DNA from: an uncultured Bacteroidales bacterium
GTDB taxonomy: Bacteria; Bacteroidota; Bacteroidia; Bacteroidales; UBA932
NCBI GenBank assembly: GCA_944326355.1
Contig: CALVDO010000011.1
Coordinates: 1 to 64,000 of the forward strand
Reading direction: 5' to 3'
Length of the DNA: 64,000 bases
Below are positions 12,449 through 64,000 of the stretch, piece by piece. Within the stretch, counting starts at the first letter, position 1. The number at the start of each line of letters is the position of its first letter. The notes under the pieces were generated by a model that was not told the origin of the DNA, ran no database searches, and saw only the letters and a list, made by a program, of their open reading frames with translations. The translations under genes were made by a program, and so were the position numbers.

Positions 12449-12833
12449 TGGTCATGAAAATGACTGACAGATGACTGACAACCGTGATTCTCACGGAACA
12501 TGTCTGAACAAGCTCTGACATGGAGGGTCGACTCCCGCAAGGGGGCCGGCCCTTTTCTGTTTCTGCCGGAGCGGATTCTCTGCAAGAAACCGCCACTATG
12601 CCTCCTGTCAGATGTCCGTAGACCCGACGACGGCAGCAGACCCGACGACGGCAGCAGACCCGACGACGGCAGCAGACCCGACGACGGCAGCAGATCGACG
12701 ATGGCAGATCCGATGATTCTCGAAAAGGCACGCAAACTCTGCAGAAGGCTTCGCCGCAGCGGAATTTTTCGTTATCTTTACAGGTTTGAAATTTCGGACA
12801 GACTCAGTGCGGAACGCAGAAACAGACGAAAAG
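12449..12833. other. Non-coding gap between hsp20 and the MutS-like gene
   Basis: It holds a small hairpin ccgtga-ttc-tcacgg (12482-12496), a weak GC hairpin with trailing T-run (12539-12556), the 18-bp tandem repeat at 12621-12692 and a -7-like TATCTTTA (12773-12780) ahead of the next gene. Frames that cross the repeat are not protein-like. Confidence 0.5.
12621..12692. repeat. Four perfect tandem copies of an 18-bp unit
   Basis: The unit gacccgacgacggcagca is repeated four times without mismatch, followed by a degraded partial copy (gatcgacgatggca). Perfect identity suggests recent slippage or copy-number variability. The period is a multiple of three, but no convincing gene covers it. Confidence 0.9.
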
Positions 12834-14780
12834 ATGGCAATGAAATCCACACCAGAACATACGGAATCGACAACGCCAGCCGGCCAGACCGCAGCCGAGA
12901 CCGCCGGCAAGACAGCGCCGGAGGCCGCCGGCAAGACAGCAATTGCCCAGTCGGCACACCTGACCGCTGACAAGACGGCACCGGAGGCATTCTATACGGA
13001 ACGGGCTGAAAGGCTGAAGGCGGAGGAAACCATGACAGGCCGCAAGAGCGGCATGATGATGTTCTGCAGACTGGCATTCTTCTGCCTGTGCGCGGTATTC
13101 ATCTGGCTGGCAGTTGACAATCACGGCAATGCGGCATACGTGGCGGCGGCCCTCATCTGCGCCGTCGCATTTTTCGTCATCCTCAAAATCGACGAAAGGT
13201 ACAGAAAGACGATTGAAAGGCTCAGAGCCATGACGCGGATATGCGAAAATGAGCTCGCCTGCCTCAAAGGTGACTTCTCACCGTTCCCTGAGGGAAGCGA
13301 ATATGTGGACATGAAACATGAATACTCATTCGACATGGACATATTCGGCCCTGACTCGCTATTCCAGCGCATGAACAGGACCGTGACGCGGAAAGGGAGC
13401 AAGAGACTCGCGGAAAGGCTGACTACTATAAGCCTCGACAGGAATGTGATCGAAAGAAACCGGGAGGCAGTCGCCGAACTTGCAGCCGATCCGGAGTGGA
13501 GACTGAAGTTCATGTCCTGCCCGCAGATCGGAGACAGGCTCGACTCCCTCGCAGAAAAGACGGCTGCAGGCGACGCCGACGCCCCGAAAGGCATCCTCAC
13601 AAGAGGTGTCGCTCCGTTCGTGCTCATCGCGCTGACTCTCGGCGCGCTGGTCTGCTGCATTTTCGGAGTGCTGCCGTGGATGGCTTTCGTGGTGATGGTC
13701 TTCATCCAGCTTCTGACCGCGACAATGACAGGCGGAATGACGGAAAAGACGGCGCAGAATGCGGACAGCCTCGACAGGGAAAGCGGGAAATACATGGCCC
13801 TGCTCAAGGTGATTGAAGAAAAGAAATTCTCCTCCGGACTTCTGCGCGGACTTGAAGAAGAGCTCTTCAACGAAGAAAAAGGCTGCCCGGCCGCATTCAG
13901 GGAACTCGCGAAGATACTGAGCCTCTTCGAGCTCAGGGGCAATTTCATCACATACCTGCTCTTCAACGGACTTTTCATGTACGATGTCCTGCTCAGGCGG
14001 AAATTCCGGAAATGGATGAAGACATACGCGGTTCATGTGCGGAAATGGACGGACTGCACGGCGGAATTTGACGCACTCGTGAGCCTGGGGACTCATGCAT
14101 TCAACAACCCGGACAATGTCTGCGCGGAGATCCTCGGCCCGGACTCAGAAACGGTAATCGCGGCGACGGACATCTCTCATCCGTTCCTGCCTGCACAGAC
14201 GGCTGTACCAAACAGCATCTCGCTGAAAAAGGGAGAGATAGCCATCATAACCGGAGCGAACATGGCAGGCAAGAGCACCTTCCTCCGGACGATAGGCACC
14301 TCGTATGTCCTTGCTGTCAACGGAGCTCCGGTCCGGGCGGCATCCTTCGCCTTCATGCCCGTGAGCCTGTTCTCGAGCATGCGCACCACAGACAATCTGT
14401 CCGCCGACATATCATATTTCCAGGCGGAACTGCTCAGACTCAAGCAGCTGCTTGACCATGTGCGACACAGCGGCTACAGCCTCATCATCCTCGACGAAAT
14501 CCTCAAAGGCACCAATTCCGCCGACAAGCTCAACGGCTCGATACTCGTGCTCAGAGAACTGATAAAGCACAGAGTGTCAGGACTTGTCGCTACTCATGAC
14601 CTGGAACTGGCCAAGCTCGGAGAGACTGAAAGCGGACATTTCACCTGCCGCTGCTTCGAGATAGAACTCGCTGATGAGATAAAATACACCTACAGGATGA
14701 AGGAGGGCATCGCAAGAAACATGAACGCCACTCACCTGCTGAAAAGAATCCTGAAAGAAGACGATGAAGAAAGGAATTGA
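12834..14780 (+). CDS. Membrane-anchored MutS-family ATPase
   Basis: The 648-residue protein has the MutS C-terminal ATPase but not the mismatch-recognition domain. The P-loop TGANMAGKST lies near residue 475, the Walker B region is LIILDEILKGTNSADK, and the switch is VATHDLELAKL. Four hydrophobic segments are visible: two N-terminal (FCRLAFFCLCAVFIWLAV and AAYVAAALICAVAFFVIL), one long central (FVLIALTLGALVCC onwards) and one weaker. This architecture is common and uncharacterised in Bacteroidota. The Ala/Thr-rich N-terminus has short AGKTAPEA repeats. The start is ATG 12834; an in-frame TTG at 12786 is less likely. It overlaps the next gene by 17 bases, so the two are translationally coupled. 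The function is unknown and it should not be called mismatch-repair MutS. Confidence 0.85.
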   Translation: MAMKSTPEHTESTTPAGQTAAETAGKTAPEAAGKTAIAQSAHLTADKTAPEAFYTERAERLKAEETMTGRKSGMMMFCRLAFFCLCAVFIWLAVDNHGNAAYVAAALICAVAFFVILKIDERYRKTIERLRAMTRICENELACLKGDFSPFPEGSEYVDMKHEYSFDMDIFGPDSLFQRMNRTVTRKGSKRLAERLTTISLDRNVIERNREAVAELAADPEWRLKFMSCPQIGDRLDSLAEKTAAGDADAPKGILTRGVAPFVLIALTLGALVCCIFGVLPWMAFVVMVFIQLLTATMTGGMTEKTAQNADSLDRESGKYMALLKVIEEKKFSSGLLRGLEEELFNEEKGCPAAFRELAKILSLFELRGNFITYLLFNGLFMYDVLLRRKFRKWMKTYAVHVRKWTDCTAEFDALVSLGTHAFNNPDNVCAEILGPDSETVIAATDISHPFLPAQTAVPNSISLKKGEIAIITGANMAGKSTFLRTIGTSYVLAVNGAPVRAASFAFMPVSLFSSMRTTDNLSADISYFQAELLRLKQLLDHVRHSGYSLIILDEILKGTNSADKLNGSILVLRELIKHRVSGLVATHDLELAKLGETESGHFTCRCFEIELADEIKYTYRMKEGIARNMNATHLLKRILKEDDEERN

Positions 14781-58698: not shown

Positions 58699-60297
58699 TC
58701 AGAGGCCCCAGTCTGAAGGGTTGAAGGAGTCCTTTGGGGCAGTCGGGACATTGGTGAAATAGGTAAAGCCCGTTATTTTCTCGAGGTCGCTGACTGACAT
58801 CAGGTCTCTTCTGTCCACCTGTGTACCCTTAGGCGTGTTGTGGCTGCGGACGAAGGCGGCGCACATGAGCTCGTCTTCCGTACACTCGGACAGAGCCTTG
58901 CCGGTGTTGCCCTTCTTCGTTCTGAGCAGGATATAGTAGAACATCGTCGGCTTGGACACGTCGCTGCGGCCGCAGAAAGAGATCTTGGTCGGAGTTGCGC
59001 TATATCCCCTGTTGTCTCTGAACTCATCGAAATATGCGCCTATCACGACATATAGAGTATCTGAGCACACCTTCCTGTCGACCCAGTCCTCAAGGGTGTT
59101 CCATCCGCCACCGCCTGTATTGAAAGAGTTTGTCAGCTGAGGGGCGATATTGCTGTAATAGAAGACCTGCCTGTTTGTAGCGCTTGATGAAGTCCTTTCT
59201 GCAGACCCGAGCATGTGGCCTTTGTTGCAGCCTCCTCCGGTTTTTGTGCTGTTGTACTGTATTGAAGCCGGTATATCCGGATCTTTAGAATAGCCGGATC
59301 TGCCGGAAGAGCCCTCGTACATGGAGTGTCTCGGAGCGGCCACCCATACAGGGCAATGATGCTCGGCGCTGAAGCATACCGTATAGTTGCGTGCCTTCTT
59401 GCCGCCCGGTCCCTTCTCGTTTCCGTCACACAGATGGTAGGCATAATAGAGATCCGGGGCAGTGGCCTCGGTAAGATAGCCGGACGACTCCTTGAGCTTC
59501 ATGACCGGAAGCTCATACCAGGCGTATTTCCCGCTGCCCGGGTTTGGATCTGGATCCGGGTCCGGATTTTCCGGCTCCTCGGGCTCCTCCGGCTCTTCCG
59601 GATCAGGCGGCACCGTACCGCTTCCAGAAGCGTCACTTCTATAGAGGATAATGTCTTCCTGAGAGCCCGAATATGCGGAGAAGCGCGGATGCGAGGCATT
59701 CCACTGGAGAATCCTCGTATCGTCCGCCACTGAAGTCATCCTCATGCGGCCGTTCCAAGACAGATCCCAGAGCCATGTGCCGTCGCTCCCGTCCGGAGCT
59801 GTAGAGGTCACCGTAAGAGTATTGCCTTCATCGCTGTGACCGATGTAGCCCACATTGCTCACATACACTGAATAATGGTCTCCTACCGCAGTCACGACAC
59901 TCTTGTACGGGTCGCCATCCTCTGCCGGAATGCCGTCCTCAGTCACGAAAACGCTGAGATCAACCATATTTCCGGCATCGTCGCCGGCAGGCTGGCCGTA
60001 TGTCTCGTCTGACCAGTCGGCGAACACGATCAGCGCGTCAGAGTAATCTGCGCATATCAGATAGTCACCCGACCAGTCGGCCAGAGAAGCCGTCACCTCC
60101 TGATAGAAATGCGGCTCAGGAACATCCGGCTCCTCCCCGCCGCCACCTGTTCCAGGAGTCTGGCCTTGATTGTCGCCGCCCGGCACTTCTGTCCCGAGAG
60201 AGCCATCGCAGGCGACAAACGGCGCCGCAGCTGCGAGAATTGCGGCAAATGACCTGAGAATCATCAGTGAAAAGCGACCTTTCATACTTTTTTTCAT
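58699..60297 (-). CDS. Lipoprotein DNA/RNA non-specific endonuclease (NUC1 type)
   Basis: About 532 residues. Leader with lipobox-like AAPFVAC, then a Gly/Pro-rich linker. Residues about 85-230 form a beta-rich region (VTASLADWSGDYLICADY) that may bind a surface partner or ligand. A Pro/Glu/Asp linker (PPDPEEPEEPEEPENPDP) precedes the C-terminal ββα-metal nuclease, about 270-530. The usual DRGH is NKGH here (GCNKGHMLGSAERTSSSATN), keeping the general-base His; YYSNIAPQ and the following Asn supply the metal region. Probably a surface nuclease for scavenging nucleic acids. Starts at ATG 60297; downstream ATG 60285 is an alternative. Divergent from the vWA operon. Confidence 0.85.
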   Translation of the reverse strand: MKKSMKGRFSLMILRSFAAILAAAAPFVACDGSLGTEVPGGDNQGQTPGTGGGGEEPDVPEPHFYQEVTASLADWSGDYLICADYSDALIVFADWSDETYGQPAGDDAGNMVDLSVFVTEDGIPAEDGDPYKSVVTAVGDHYSVYVSNVGYIGHSDEGNTLTVTSTAPDGSDGTWLWDLSWNGRMRMTSVADDTRILQWNASHPRFSAYSGSQEDIILYRSDASGSGTVPPDPEEPEEPEEPENPDPDPDPNPGSGKYAWYELPVMKLKESSGYLTEATAPDLYYAYHLCDGNEKGPGGKKARNYTVCFSAEHHCPVWVAAPRHSMYEGSSGRSGYSKDPDIPASIQYNSTKTGGGCNKGHMLGSAERTSSSATNRQVFYYSNIAPQLTNSFNTGGGGWNTLEDWVDRKVCSDTLYVVIGAYFDEFRDNRGYSATPTKISFCGRSDVSKPTMFYYILLRTKKGNTGKALSECTEDELMCAAFVRSHNTPKGTQVDRRDLMSVSDLEKITGFTYFTNVPTAPKDSFNPSDWGL

Positions 60298-60327
60298 TTT
60301 AAGGGACGCCAAATATCGCAATTGTCA

Positions 60328-60390: not shown

Positions 60391-61422
60391 ATGAAAAAAA
60401 CTTCTTTTGTACTTACGCTGCTCCTCTCGGCCTTCCTGAGCGCACTTCCTGCGGGATGGAACTGCGCCGCTCAGAGCCGAAGCGTAAAAGACGTCAGGAT
60501 CACATATCTCTGGGACGTCACCCTCTCGATGAAAGGCTACAACGGAGCTCCCGACATCTATGACGACGTGGTCAAGGCTCTCGTGAAGGACATCAGCGCC
60601 ATCTCGGACGAGCGGACTGAAATCGTGGTCATTCCCTTCCAGGACAGCGAATACTGCGACGTGTGGAGAGTCCGCGCCACGGAAGAGGGCAAGAGGCAGA
60701 TCACTTCCAGAATCACCTCCTACGACAACGGGAACGTCACGAACACAAGCATATCCAGGCCGCTCAGATATGCCATAGACAATGTGTTCAGCCCGGACAA
60801 GGTTGACATCATGAAGCTGCTGACCGACGGCAGGGACAACGTCGCCCCGAAAGAGGTCGGACGGCTGCTCGACAACTGGTGCTCAATAGCGGAGCAAAAG
60901 GATGTCTACGGCTATTACGTGATGCTCACTCCGGCGGCGAAGGACGACGAAATAGTGCTTAAGCTGGAGAAGGTGTGCAGATTCGAGGCGGTGGAAGGGA
61001 TGGGATTCCAGGACATCGTCTCCGTGTTCCCGCCTGAAAAGCTGAGCGTCAATGTCAGGGATGACTACGGCAAGCCGCTGCAGATCAGCTTCACCACCGG
61101 CAACAGCATGAGGATTCCGGAAGGATTCAGAGTGAGGGTGAGATCCGTCGGCGGCGGAGCGGACGGCTACCCATATATAACGGTGGACGAGACGGCTACG
61201 GTGACGGACAATGCGGTGACAGTCACGCCGGAATTTCTCAAGAGCATGGAGGAGATGAAGGAACTGCTGCCTAAGGAGGGCTTCGAGACTCTTCTGCTCG
61301 AGATCACCCCGGCGGAAGGAATGGAAGCCGGCGAATACGCTCTCACTCGAATACCGGACAAGACATGCCGGGTAGAACTTGTGAATAAACCTGAAAAATC
61401 ATTGCGCATCCATGTCAGATAA
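60391..61422 (+). CDS. Secreted vWA-domain protein
   Basis: The 343-residue protein has signal peptide MKKTSFVLTLLLSAFLSALP. Residues about 35-220 form a von Willebrand A domain. The metal-binding MIDAS motif is DVTLS at 42-46, a D-x-T-x-S variant of DxSxS, with later ligands in NTSISRPLRY (Thr) and LLTDGRDN (Asp). The rest is beta-rich (ISFTTGNSMRIPEGFRVRVRS in part: RIPEGFRVRVRS). vWA domains mediate metal-dependent protein contacts. It is the first gene of a three-gene unit. The stop overlaps the next gene by 11 bases. The fully exported position is unusual for partners of cytoplasmic GTPases, so the middle protein presumably bridges the membrane. Confidence 0.85.
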   Translation: MKKTSFVLTLLLSAFLSALPAGWNCAAQSRSVKDVRITYLWDVTLSMKGYNGAPDIYDDVVKALVKDISAISDERTEIVVIPFQDSEYCDVWRVRATEEGKRQITSRITSYDNGNVTNTSISRPLRYAIDNVFSPDKVDIMKLLTDGRDNVAPKEVGRLLDNWCSIAEQKDVYGYYVMLTPAAKDDEIVLKLEKVCRFEAVEGMGFQDIVSVFPPEKLSVNVRDDYGKPLQISFTTGNSMRIPEGFRVRVRSVGGGADGYPYITVDETATVTDNAVTVTPEFLKSMEEMKELLPKEGFETLLLEITPAEGMEAGEYALTRIPDKTCRVELVNKPEKSLRIHVR

Positions 61423-62353
61423 AAAGATACACTTTTACGCCGCTCCGCTGATGGCGGTACTGATGGCGCTTATCACCGTCTCCTGCAGCCAGGACAAAGA
61501 CATCGACACCATGTCATGGGGCAAATGCACCTCTTACGGCGACTTCCTCTGGAAAAAGCATATTCCGGACACTCTGACGCGGGAAATCGTCCTCGAATTC
61601 AACTCCGACGCGGAGCGCTACATGACTTCGCCGGTCGTGTTCGGCATCTTCAGAAAGACTGAGGACGGCAGCCTCGTCCCTGTGGACAATAACGACCTTG
61701 AGGTGTATGTCGACGGAGACAGGAGCGAAGACAACACCATCAGCGTCATGCCTCCGGACGAATCGGTGAAAGTCGGGCTCGTCCTCGGGGACGGGCTTGA
61801 CGCAGGCTCCTTCCACTGGTATCTCAAGACGGTCAGCGACGGGGGTCTCGACCGCATCAACGGCCTGACTGCCGAAGAGTTCGGCAGCAGCGACTCCGCA
61901 CTGATGGAGATTGTGCTCAAGAAGCGCAAGACAATGAATCCGCTTGCAGGCACGCTGCTGGGCATCCTGTCCGCCATAGTGCTGGTACTCGTACTATGGC
62001 TTCTGATTGCCAGACCGATTTTCTATCCTGGATTCAGAGTGAAATCCATATCGCTGAGCGGCCCTGAGCCATATTTCGCCACCCACAGGCTCAAAGGAGC
62101 CAGAAAGCTGGTGCTCACGGCAAAGCCTGAAAGGCAGGGGCTCATGTCGAGACTCTTCTCCGGAAGGATAGTCTACGGAATCAATCCGCTCTGGACCACG
62201 CGGATCGAAATCATCCCGCGAGACGGCCGCAGCATCAGGATCAAGACGCTCGGACCGGAATTCTTCATAATGAGCAAAGTGCTCAAGGTACGCGAAGAAT
62301 ACGAGCTCGAAAACACACGGACCAGAGGCAAGACCCGCATAACGGTATCATGA
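61412..62353 (+). CDS. Lipoprotein-like protein with central TM helix, putative adaptor
   Basis: 313 residues. An N-terminal hydrophobic leader ends at a lipobox-like ALITVSC. About 145 residues of beta-rich, extracytoplasmic sequence follow, then one strong TM (LAGTLLGILSAIVLVLVLWL, about 173-195) and about 110 residues of basic cytoplasmic sequence (KLVLTAKPERQGLMSRLFSG, IEIIPRDGRSIRIKTLG). No family is recognised. Between a secreted vWA protein and an FtsZ-like GTPase, it fits a transmembrane coupler (inference). Whether the Cys is lipidated, or the leader is a first TM, is not clear. A 96-base gap to the next gene holds GC-rich inverted repeats. Confidence 0.75.
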   Translation: MSDKKIHFYAAPLMAVLMALITVSCSQDKDIDTMSWGKCTSYGDFLWKKHIPDTLTREIVLEFNSDAERYMTSPVVFGIFRKTEDGSLVPVDNNDLEVYVDGDRSEDNTISVMPPDESVKVGLVLGDGLDAGSFHWYLKTVSDGGLDRINGLTAEEFGSSDSALMEIVLKKRKTMNPLAGTLLGILSAIVLVLVLWLLIARPIFYPGFRVKSISLSGPEPYFATHRLKGARKLVLTAKPERQGLMSRLFSGRIVYGINPLWTTRIEIIPRDGRSIRIKTLGPEFFIMSKVLKVREEYELENTRTRGKTRITVS

Positions 62354-62449
62354 GCTGCCTTCAGATTGTCCGGCCGGCCCATCGGCAGCAGCCGACAGGC
62401 CGGCTGCCCATAGACATTTAGAAAATAAACACATAAAAAGACACTTACT

Positions 62450-64000
62450 ATGGCCACAAGAATCAAAAGAAGCCTCTTCATAGGCCTTGGTGGAACAGGA
62501 ATGACCTCCCTGCTCCACACCAAAAAGATGTTCATCGACACATACGGAGACGTGCCTCCTATGATCGGATTTCTCGGAATAGACACCGACGGAGGAGCCT
62601 ACAACAAGGGCGTCACCGGCAAATCCGGCGAGAAGATCACCCTCTCTCCGAACGAGCAGCTGCCTATCACCGTCAAAGACGCCAGACCTATCTATGACAT
62701 CAACCGCAGCAGGCTCACATGGCTTCCGGAAAAGAACCTCTACGCCCTCACCGGCATGACCCTCGGAGCGGGAATGGTGCGCTCCAACGGCCGCTTCGCC
62801 TTCACGGTGAACCACGAGAAGGTGGCGAGGAAGGTGCGCGAGATGCTGACTTCCATTTCCAACGCATCCATCTCGTCGGACGACAGATACGAGCTCATCA
62901 GCAACACCACCAACATCTATCTTATCTTCTCCATCGGAGGCGGCACCGGATGCGGAACATTCATCAACATGGCCTATCTTCTTAGAAAGGAGGCGCCGGA
63001 ATGCAAGCTCACGGCATACGCAGTGCTTCCTGACGTGTTCAAGGCGATGGCGCAGCAGTCAATGCCGAGAGTGCGGCCAAACGCCTACGGTGCGATCGTC
63101 GACCTGGACTATCTGATGTCCATGTCCTTCAGCGATGAGCCTTTCACTCTCGAATACCTCGGCAACGACAGCTATGACATCAGGGAAAGGCCATTCAACT
63201 CCGTAATCCTCGTGGACAACCGGAACGAGAACGGCGATGCCTACACCCATGTCGACCAGCTTGCCGAGATGATAAGCCTCGGCCTCGTGACTTCGGCCGG
63301 AGAACTGTCGGACGCAGCCAACAGCATGAGCGACAACCTTGAGAAGGACATCAGCAACGGTGAGATGGACATCCGTGGCAAGAAGGCCTGGGCTGCCGGA
63401 ATGGGAGTTTGCGAGATAATCTACCGCAGTTCCGACCTTAGCCGCTACTATTCAATGAAGGCGGCAAAGCATGTCATCGAGCAGATGCTGAACAGCTGCG
63501 AAGACGCTGACGCCATCGCCAACAATTGGATAGACTCCGTCAACATCCGCGAAAACGAGGGCTGCGACAACGTCATCGACTTCATCTGCGGCAAGGAGCC
63601 GAGATACACCGACTTCAGCATCAACGCACCGGACAATCCCAAGCCGGAGGCCGAGCAGTTCATAGCCAGCAACAGATACCGCGACGAGGAACTGGCGGGG
63701 AAAGTGACGGATCTCAAGACCCGCTCGTCTGAGGCGCTTCAGAAGCTCATGTTCGAGCTCGTCAACAAGGAGTGCGGCATTTCGTCCGCAGCCAATGTGC
63801 TCGCCAGCATCAGATCCCAGATTTCAATCTTCATAGATGAGATCAAGAAGGAGAAGGAGGAGTTTCAGGACATGGAGCCTAAGGCAGTCTCCGCCCTCGA
63901 CATCGCATGTACCGATCTCTCTGACTATGACAGAAAATTCTTCAAGAAGTCGAGCCGCACGGCCGAATATGCTGATGACGTGGTCGAGAAGGCCAAGCAG
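62450..64000 (+). CDS. FtsZ/tubulin-like GTPase (FtsZl family), 3' end off the window
   Basis: 517 codons are visible. The start is ATG 62450 (MATRIKRSLFIGLGGTG). The first loop FIGLGGTGMTSL (10-21) and the tubulin signature SIGGGTGCGTFINMAY (about 161-176) identify the tubulin/FtsZ superfamily, the divergent tubulin_2/FtsZl branch rather than true FtsZ. GTP-binding and the T4 loop are thus present. Residues about 250 onward are helical (KEKEEFQDMEPK, DVVEKAKQ). Known FtsZl genes sit with vWA and other partners and are proposed to act in membrane remodelling. The neighbours here fit: secreted vWA and a TM adaptor. Cell division FtsZ is not expected at this site. The C-terminus and any further operon genes are not seen. 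Confidence 0.85.
   Translation, partial: MATRIKRSLFIGLGGTGMTSLLHTKKMFIDTYGDVPPMIGFLGIDTDGGAYNKGVTGKSGEKITLSPNEQLPITVKDARPIYDINRSRLTWLPEKNLYALTGMTLGAGMVRSNGRFAFTVNHEKVARKVREMLTSISNASISSDDRYELISNTTNIYLIFSIGGGTGCGTFINMAYLLRKEAPECKLTAYAVLPDVFKAMAQQSMPRVRPNAYGAIVDLDYLMSMSFSDEPFTLEYLGNDSYDIRERPFNSVILVDNRNENGDAYTHVDQLAEMISLGLVTSAGELSDAANSMSDNLEKDISNGEMDIRGKKAWAAGMGVCEIIYRSSDLSRYYSMKAAKHVIEQMLNSCEDADAIANNWIDSVNIRENEGCDNVIDFICGKEPRYTDFSINAPDNPKPEAEQFIASNRYRDEELAGKVTDLKTRSSEALQKLMFELVNKECGISSAANVLASIRSQISIFIDEIKKEKEEFQDMEPKAVSALDIACTDLSDYDRKFFKKSSRTAEYADDVVEKAKQ

Follow-up and report, generated by a model that had tools for sequence, protein, structure and literature searches.

The window analysed here is the first 64000 bases of the 72466-base contig CALVDO010000011.1 of an uncultured, gut-type Bacteroidales bacterium, and it ends inside an operon of four genes. 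In this order, the genes encode a protein with a von Willebrand factor A (vWA) domain, a membrane-spanning protein hereafter called the adaptor, a tubulin-like GTPase of the FtsZl1 group (Pfam Tubulin_2) and a large protein carrying a papain-type protease domain. The linkage of the four genes is far from chance, 46 loci of other genomes sharing this order. We tentatively interpret the operon, at slightly less than even confidence, as a four-component transmembrane switch of the inner membrane, a Bacteroidales elaboration of FtsZl1-vWA systems in which the GTPase would gate the protease. The parts of the operon, their linkage and their topology rest on sequence or on predicted structure.

The GTPase family and its link to vWA proteins were already known. 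FtsZl1 proteins were described by Makarova and Koonin in 2010 as vWA-linked, with a proposed role in membrane remodelling (PMC2875224), and have been on record since then without a known function. Neither protease nor papain is mentioned in the main text of that paper. A 2023 survey treated the FtsZl1 group merely as divergent FtsZ-like outgroups, and no experimental study of FtsZl1 proteins was found in the open-licence papers searched. What is new is that the four genes form a fixed set, that vWA protein and adaptor have split and fused repeatedly, and that a probable pseudo-tubulin bears a papain domain. The operon gives the FtsZl1 family a defined topology, with the vWA domain outside, a single transmembrane bridge and the GTPase inside. 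It also links the family to an enzyme of measurable activity, so that its function becomes simply testable.

Linkage and order of the four genes

A preliminary description, confined to the window, had proposed a transmembrane machine of three proteins. All three open reading frames were found where it placed them, and the first two genes share exactly 11 bases (61412-61422), as it had noted. The three parts stood; the completeness of the set did not, as the fourth, protease-bearing protein lay past the window edge. Because the contig continues to position 72466, in the same numbering as the window, the GTPase gene, whose reading frame leaves the window at 64000, could be completed (910 residues, ending at contig position 65182) and the fourth gene recovered.

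Carriage was surveyed in 150 genomes of the bacterium's family and in a set of 295 genomes of the order. The adaptor is present in seven of the 150 family genomes, and in all seven the GTPase gene adjoins it. Across the order, the adaptor profile matched 2 of the 295 genomes, the second being G240, where a fused vWA-adaptor gene is followed by the GTPase gene and a third gene. Adaptor homologues were never seen without a neighbouring GTPase gene (7/7 family genomes and G240), which bears out the linkage on which the preliminary description had made its proposal depend. The GTPase itself was detected in nine family genomes, one of which (G137) holds a distant Tubulin_2 protein in another gene setting; this locus (L019, G137:C237) has an open reading frame of 1039 residues and neither adaptor nor protease partner.

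GTDB contigs, scanned with the fourth protein as query, yielded 75 loci. Forty-six of them (L047-L092) match it beyond the protease domain; the remaining loci match in the protease domain alone and are not counted among the 46. Scanning these 46 Bacteroidales loci with hidden Markov models recovered the order vWA-adaptor-GTPase-protease wherever the contig was long enough, so that the trio seen in the window keeps its order in other genomes. The contig of locus L084 is filed as Planctomycetaceae (bin Gsp477_bin66) and carries a Bacteroidales-type fourth protein; it is probably mis-binned.

In 12 of the 46 loci, the vWA protein and the adaptor form a single open reading frame, matched each time by both models. 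The same arrangement is seen in G042 and G240, two genomes outside these loci. At least five changes between the fused and the split state are required on the tree. In the fusion of locus L062, for example, the vWA match runs to residue 302 and the adaptor match starts at residue 306, and the junction corresponds to a point just past the signal peptide of the split adaptor. Such Rosetta-stone fusions indicate that the vWA protein and the adaptor act as one unit.

Components and predicted topology

The vWA protein contains a signal peptide, a vWA domain with the metal-site (MIDAS) motif DVTLS (DxTxS), both as previously described, and a conserved C-terminal NKPEK motif. Two further MIDAS positions, T119 and D146, are invariant in the alignment, and DxTxS or DxSxS was seen in all vWA-bearing reading frames checked except one. 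The Pfam VWA model stayed below its cut-off (16.8 bits versus 23.8, E=0.008), and the domain is therefore regarded as a divergent vWA, assigned from the motif and from gene position. The protein had been called secreted; since many relatives fuse the vWA domain to the transmembrane adaptor, it is better read as periplasmic and membrane-tethered.

The adaptor starts with a signal peptide that includes a conserved Cys25, followed by an Ig-like domain. Its AlphaFold model (mean predicted local distance difference test, pLDDT, of 91) has a transmembrane helix (residues 177-204) between two beta-sandwiches, an outer one (35-173) and an inner one (210-313). The tail is basic, with 22 K+R versus 9 D+E. 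The external beta-rich part, single transmembrane segment and basic tail recognised earlier thus all reappear in the model. The top three structural matches of the inner domain are all FHA domains (83-87 residues, the greater part of the domain, aligned at a root-mean-square deviation of 2.5-2.8), with Z scores of 7.1-7.6, at a level (below 8) that can reflect a common beta-sandwich arrangement. These matches are suggestive of an FHA-like fold for the modelled tail; the Pfam scan of the adaptor did not match FHA. The outer domain matches Ig-like domains of pilins, chaperones and integrins, unspecifically, at Z 5-6.6.

This protein had been described as unrecognised. It resembles the C-terminal half of the vWA-transmembrane proteins known beside FtsZl1 genes and is probably that half, split off. 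Indeed, a vWA protein of Thermus carries its transmembrane stretch and tail in one chain, which makes the adaptor most simply a detached second half. The suggestion that the adaptor bridges the periplasmic vWA protein and the cytoplasmic GTPase agrees with its one transmembrane helix, its folded domains on both sides, the adjacency of the GTPase gene and the 12 fusions; given the constant gene order and the repeated fusion, this role is well supported.

The GTPase matches Tubulin_2 (PF13809) over residues 9-343 (E=9.6e-50, 170 bits versus a cut-off of 27). Its recognition as a divergent tubulin-like protein with the loop GGGTGCGT was correct, and the doubt then raised about its GTP-binding fold is answered, at the level of sequence, by the full Tubulin_2 match and by the T1 and T4 loops. 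Among 42 full-length relatives, the T1 pattern GxGGTG occurs in 41 and the T4 pattern GGGTGxG in 40, the exceptions being a reading frame truncated by the contig end (L069) and a GGMGGG variant (L089). The copy studied here has a Cys in place of Ser/Thr in the GTP-loop motif. Its middle region gave only weak matches of coiled-coil type, and comparison of the GTPase profile with PDB sequences returned coiled-coil chance matches only. We take the GTPase to be cytoplasmic, with GTP-binding loops T1 and T4 intact; hydrolysis and polymerisation are predictions. A second tubulin-like gene lies 3′ of the operon in some loci, full-length in L089:14104-16950 and shorter in L090:13337-15571, L077:16170-17369 and L078:16200-17417.

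The fourth protein matches Peptidase_C1 of Pfam (E 3e-19). Its protease domain aligns with xylellain (3ois) at Z 30.3 over 244 residues, with a sequence match of E 2.5e-49. The Cys, His, Asn and oxyanion Gln that it shares with xylellain and other C1A peptidases are conserved in 41 of the 42 relatives in the alignment, and the triad in this genome is C535, H680 and N698. By fold and triad, the domain is a canonical papain-family (C1A) enzyme, whose activity is predicted. Unlike xylellain, it sits within a protein of about 1150 residues that has a transmembrane hairpin: the protease is followed by a pair of hydrophobic helices, at about 835-857 and 872-895, and then by the sequence RKRRRKD. Under the positive-inside rule, this hairpin and basic stretch would place the protease and both ends of the protein in the cytoplasm. 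The number of transmembrane segments differs between homologues in a simple hydropathy scan.

The slot after the GTPase gene in systems of this type is probably filled by a GTPase-dead tubulin relative, the protease and the hairpin having been inserted into it in the Bacteroidales clade. In the whole model (1147 residues, mean pLDDT 88), the N-terminal region has an alpha/beta order resembling that of the tubulin-like GTPase domain. Compared with the GTPase profile, the N region scored 24.4, one of 60 block-shuffled controls being equally high, and the C region scored 24.2, a value reached by none of 60 shuffles. The two similarities are weak, colinear and flank the protease. All such comparisons were judged on 60 shuffles each, the P-values of hhalign being single-comparison values, and several partner-to-partner comparisons among them were negative. 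In a library of viral structures, the next match after papains and one endolysin was the FtsZ GTPase of a phage (E 6.5e-3, prob 1.00); a fold search of the PDB with the whole model gave lists filled by papain-domain matches. The T1 and T4 loops are lacking in 43 of 43 fourth proteins checked by pattern, and the protein is therefore not filed as a GTPase. If the assignment holds, the insertion of a protease in a pseudo-tubulin would be an unusual construction of a GTP-gated protease.

The loci of G042 and G240, both in Bacteroidota, share with the operon the fused vWA-adaptor gene, the Tubulin_2 gene and a third gene resembling one end of the partner; they differ in that the proteins filling this slot (698 and 770 residues, respectively) lack the papain domain. 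Similarity to the partner lies at the partner's C end for the G042 protein (0/60 shuffles as high), with weak support for the N end, and at its N end for the G240 protein (score 31.2, 0/60 shuffles as high), which does not match the C end. A search of the 295 order-wide genomes with the G042 protein gave no match, an uninformative outcome as it was made with no positive control.

Proposed switch and competing explanations

For the switch that we favour, contacts, direction of signal, substrate, outcome and biological role are inferred. Outside the membrane, the vWA domain would be engaged in a ligand- or metal-dependent manner and would shift the adaptor, which would then recruit or order the GTPase at the membrane. 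Co-assembly of the GTPase with its pseudo-tubulin partner may follow, and assembly or GTP state could gate the protease, which would in turn cleave a cytoplasmic or membrane target. Some lineages also carry accessory genes (for an exported NS nuclease, an HxS peptide-modification cassette, lipoproteins and a transmembrane protein), which probably provide envelope outputs or partners. A stricter version, in which the GTPase and the GTPase-dead partner form a mixed membrane assembly whose nucleotide state switches the built-in papain protease under a periplasmic vWA receptor, is conceivable but rather doubtful; it would amount to a transmembrane receptor-cytoskeleton-protease pathway in bacteria, with the protease inserted into a pseudo-tubulin.

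Integrins have a vWA-type domain outside, an Ig-like domain, one transmembrane helix and a cytoskeletal protein inside. The likeness is one of logic only, and no homology is claimed: the operon is linked to a tubulin-like protein, not to actin, and is placed at a bacterial inner membrane.

Several points weigh against the proposed switch. Protein contacts, GTP hydrolysis, polymers and protease activity are all putative. The FHA match of the adaptor tail lies within the range of common beta-sandwiches. In locus L091 (L091:9782-13039, from a bin named Alistipes timonensis), Ser replaces the catalytic Cys. The pseudo-tubulin assignment leans on weak scores: the phage FtsZ match covers part of its target (TMt 0.28, root-mean-square deviation 10.6), the G042 and G240 proteins each match the partner clearly at one end alone, and the third proteins of the Thermales trio presented below gave no match to the partner profile.

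The nearest known systems are the FtsZl1-vWA sets (PMC2875224). They share with the operon the GTPase family PF13809, a linked vWA protein with MIDAS, membrane-associated partners and a sparse distribution. In contrast to these sets, the vWA half and the transmembrane/cytoplasmic half are often two genes in the Bacteroidales operon, the OmpA, kinase and P-loop GTPase genes were not found in its core, and the papain-protease partner is always the fourth gene of the clade. The order vWA, tubulin-like gene, third gene is also shared by a trio on the plasmids pTHEOS01 of Thermus oshimai (L155) and pMESIL01 of Allomeiothermus silvanus (L156). The Thermus vWA protein, read by eye, has vWA domain, transmembrane helix and cytoplasmic tail in one chain. 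The third gene of the trio (677-686 residues) directly follows the tubulin-like gene, and differs in having no protease; its product could not be matched to the papain-bearing partner of the Bacteroidales operon.

We also considered a role in conflict, such as anti-phage defence: the vWA protein and adaptor would sense a damaged envelope or an entering phage, the GTPase would turn on the protease, and exported nucleases or effectors would hit DNA or kill the cell. We regard this as unlikely, though it accounts for several observations. The operon is patchily distributed, and G073, a genome of the same genus, has no operon and retains the flanking genes. A fixed core is accompanied by changing accessories (NS nuclease in 9 loci, HxS in 4, DUF6565-type lipoproteins in 7 and in this genome, G000). 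The Thermales plasmid trio adjoins brxL, large helicases, and a WYL protein or exonuclease, and is possibly an FtsZl1-containing defence neighbourhood. However, the four core genes had no PADLOC match at E<=1. A scan of 129 neighbours in 35 loci found mostly housekeeping genes; a handful of defence families turned up, none of them in more than two members, and these counts, coming without a background set, do not amount to a measured lack of enrichment. Moreover, phage and plasmid records yielded no close relatives of the GTPase, only distant Tubulin_2 proteins, and viral contigs gave only papain-domain matches, with no GTPase relatives found. On the GTPase tree, host families are mixed about as in shuffled labels; this fits transfer without proving it, since many loci are metagenome bins. 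In G012, one gene occurs twice, with the same N-terminus, on either side of the operon (L013:3147-3620 and 12516-13631; 157 and 371 residues), perhaps a trace of its insertion.

Somewhat less probable still is membrane remodelling, in which the GTPase would polymerise under the inner membrane and bend the envelope or make vesicles through the adaptor and vWA protein, the protease only regulating polymer turnover. Membership of the FtsZl1 family, for which this role was proposed (PMC2875224), and membrane-anchored partners on both sides speak for it. On the other hand, no component with known membrane-bending activity was found among the operon proteins, the protease intact in nearly all relatives suggests that proteolysis is an output, and carriage by 7 of 150 family genomes argues that the operon serves no core envelope function. 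The reverse direction, with the GTPase pulling or clustering the adaptor so as to alter vWA binding, by analogy with integrin activation, and the protease cutting the link as a reset, uses identical parts and topology with an integrin-like layout in logic only, but it draws on the same evidence as the outside-in switch, nothing here fixes the direction, and we hold it improbable.

Coordinates, neighbouring genes and accessories

Table 1. Features of the operon and of its surroundings (contig and window numbering coincide)
Feature	Position	Strand	Basis or remark
NS-type nuclease gene, exported	58699-60321		divergent from operon
vWA gene, 343 residues	60391..61422	+	open reading frame listing, Pfam, alignment
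MIDAS motif DVTLS	60514..60528	+	sequence
Adaptor gene, 313 residues	61412..62353	+	open reading frame listing, structure model
Adaptor transmembrane helix	61940..62023	+	AlphaFold model, sequence
Adaptor cytoplasmic beta-sandwich, suggestive of FHA	62039..62350	+	structural matches
Tubulin-like GTPase gene (FtsZl1 / Tubulin_2)	62450..64000 in window, to 65182 on contig	+	PF13809
GTPase T1 loop GLGGTG	62483..62500	+	sequence pattern
GTPase T4 GTP-binding loop GGGTGCGT, residues 163-170	62936..62959	+	sequence pattern
Protease partner gene, 1156 residues	65185-68655, beyond window		starts 2 bp after GTPase gene
DUF6565 lipoprotein gene, 162 residues	68826-69314, beyond window		after protease partner
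DHH-CorA fusion gene	69826-72132 (= L002:11827-14133), beyond window

The NS-type nuclease gene that precedes the operon was considered as a member and rejected. Indeed, G073, lacking the operon, keeps this nuclease beside the same gdh and kinase genes, which makes it a resident of the genus. Beyond the protease partner, a DHH-family phosphodiesterase is fused to a CorA-like channel (PADLOC DHH_CorA E 2e-57, CorA E 9e-114). Fusions of this kind are known from type III CRISPR loci; a link to a type III-B system was rejected, no Cmr2 match being found in this genome (97% complete assembly).

The genes beside the core vary between loci. The NS nucleases found downstream of it are exported or membrane-anchored and need four changes on the tree, and the DUF6565-type lipoproteins need six. 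The HxS radical-SAM peptide cassettes are complete (HxsA, B, C, D) and need three changes; they lie at L053:8715-12222 and, downstream of the protease gene, in L055, L057 and L063, and their HxsA has a peptidoglycan-binding domain. HxsB exceeded its cut-off in 2 of the 150 family genomes, both of which carry the operon with HxS downstream. Finally, an unnamed downstream family of about 320-410 residues, with one N-terminal transmembrane segment and, in the member that was scanned, nothing recognised by Pfam, lies beside the core in 10 loci, requiring four changes on the tree (L070, L072, L075, L077, L078, L079, L082, L084, L087 and L089; alignment A9).

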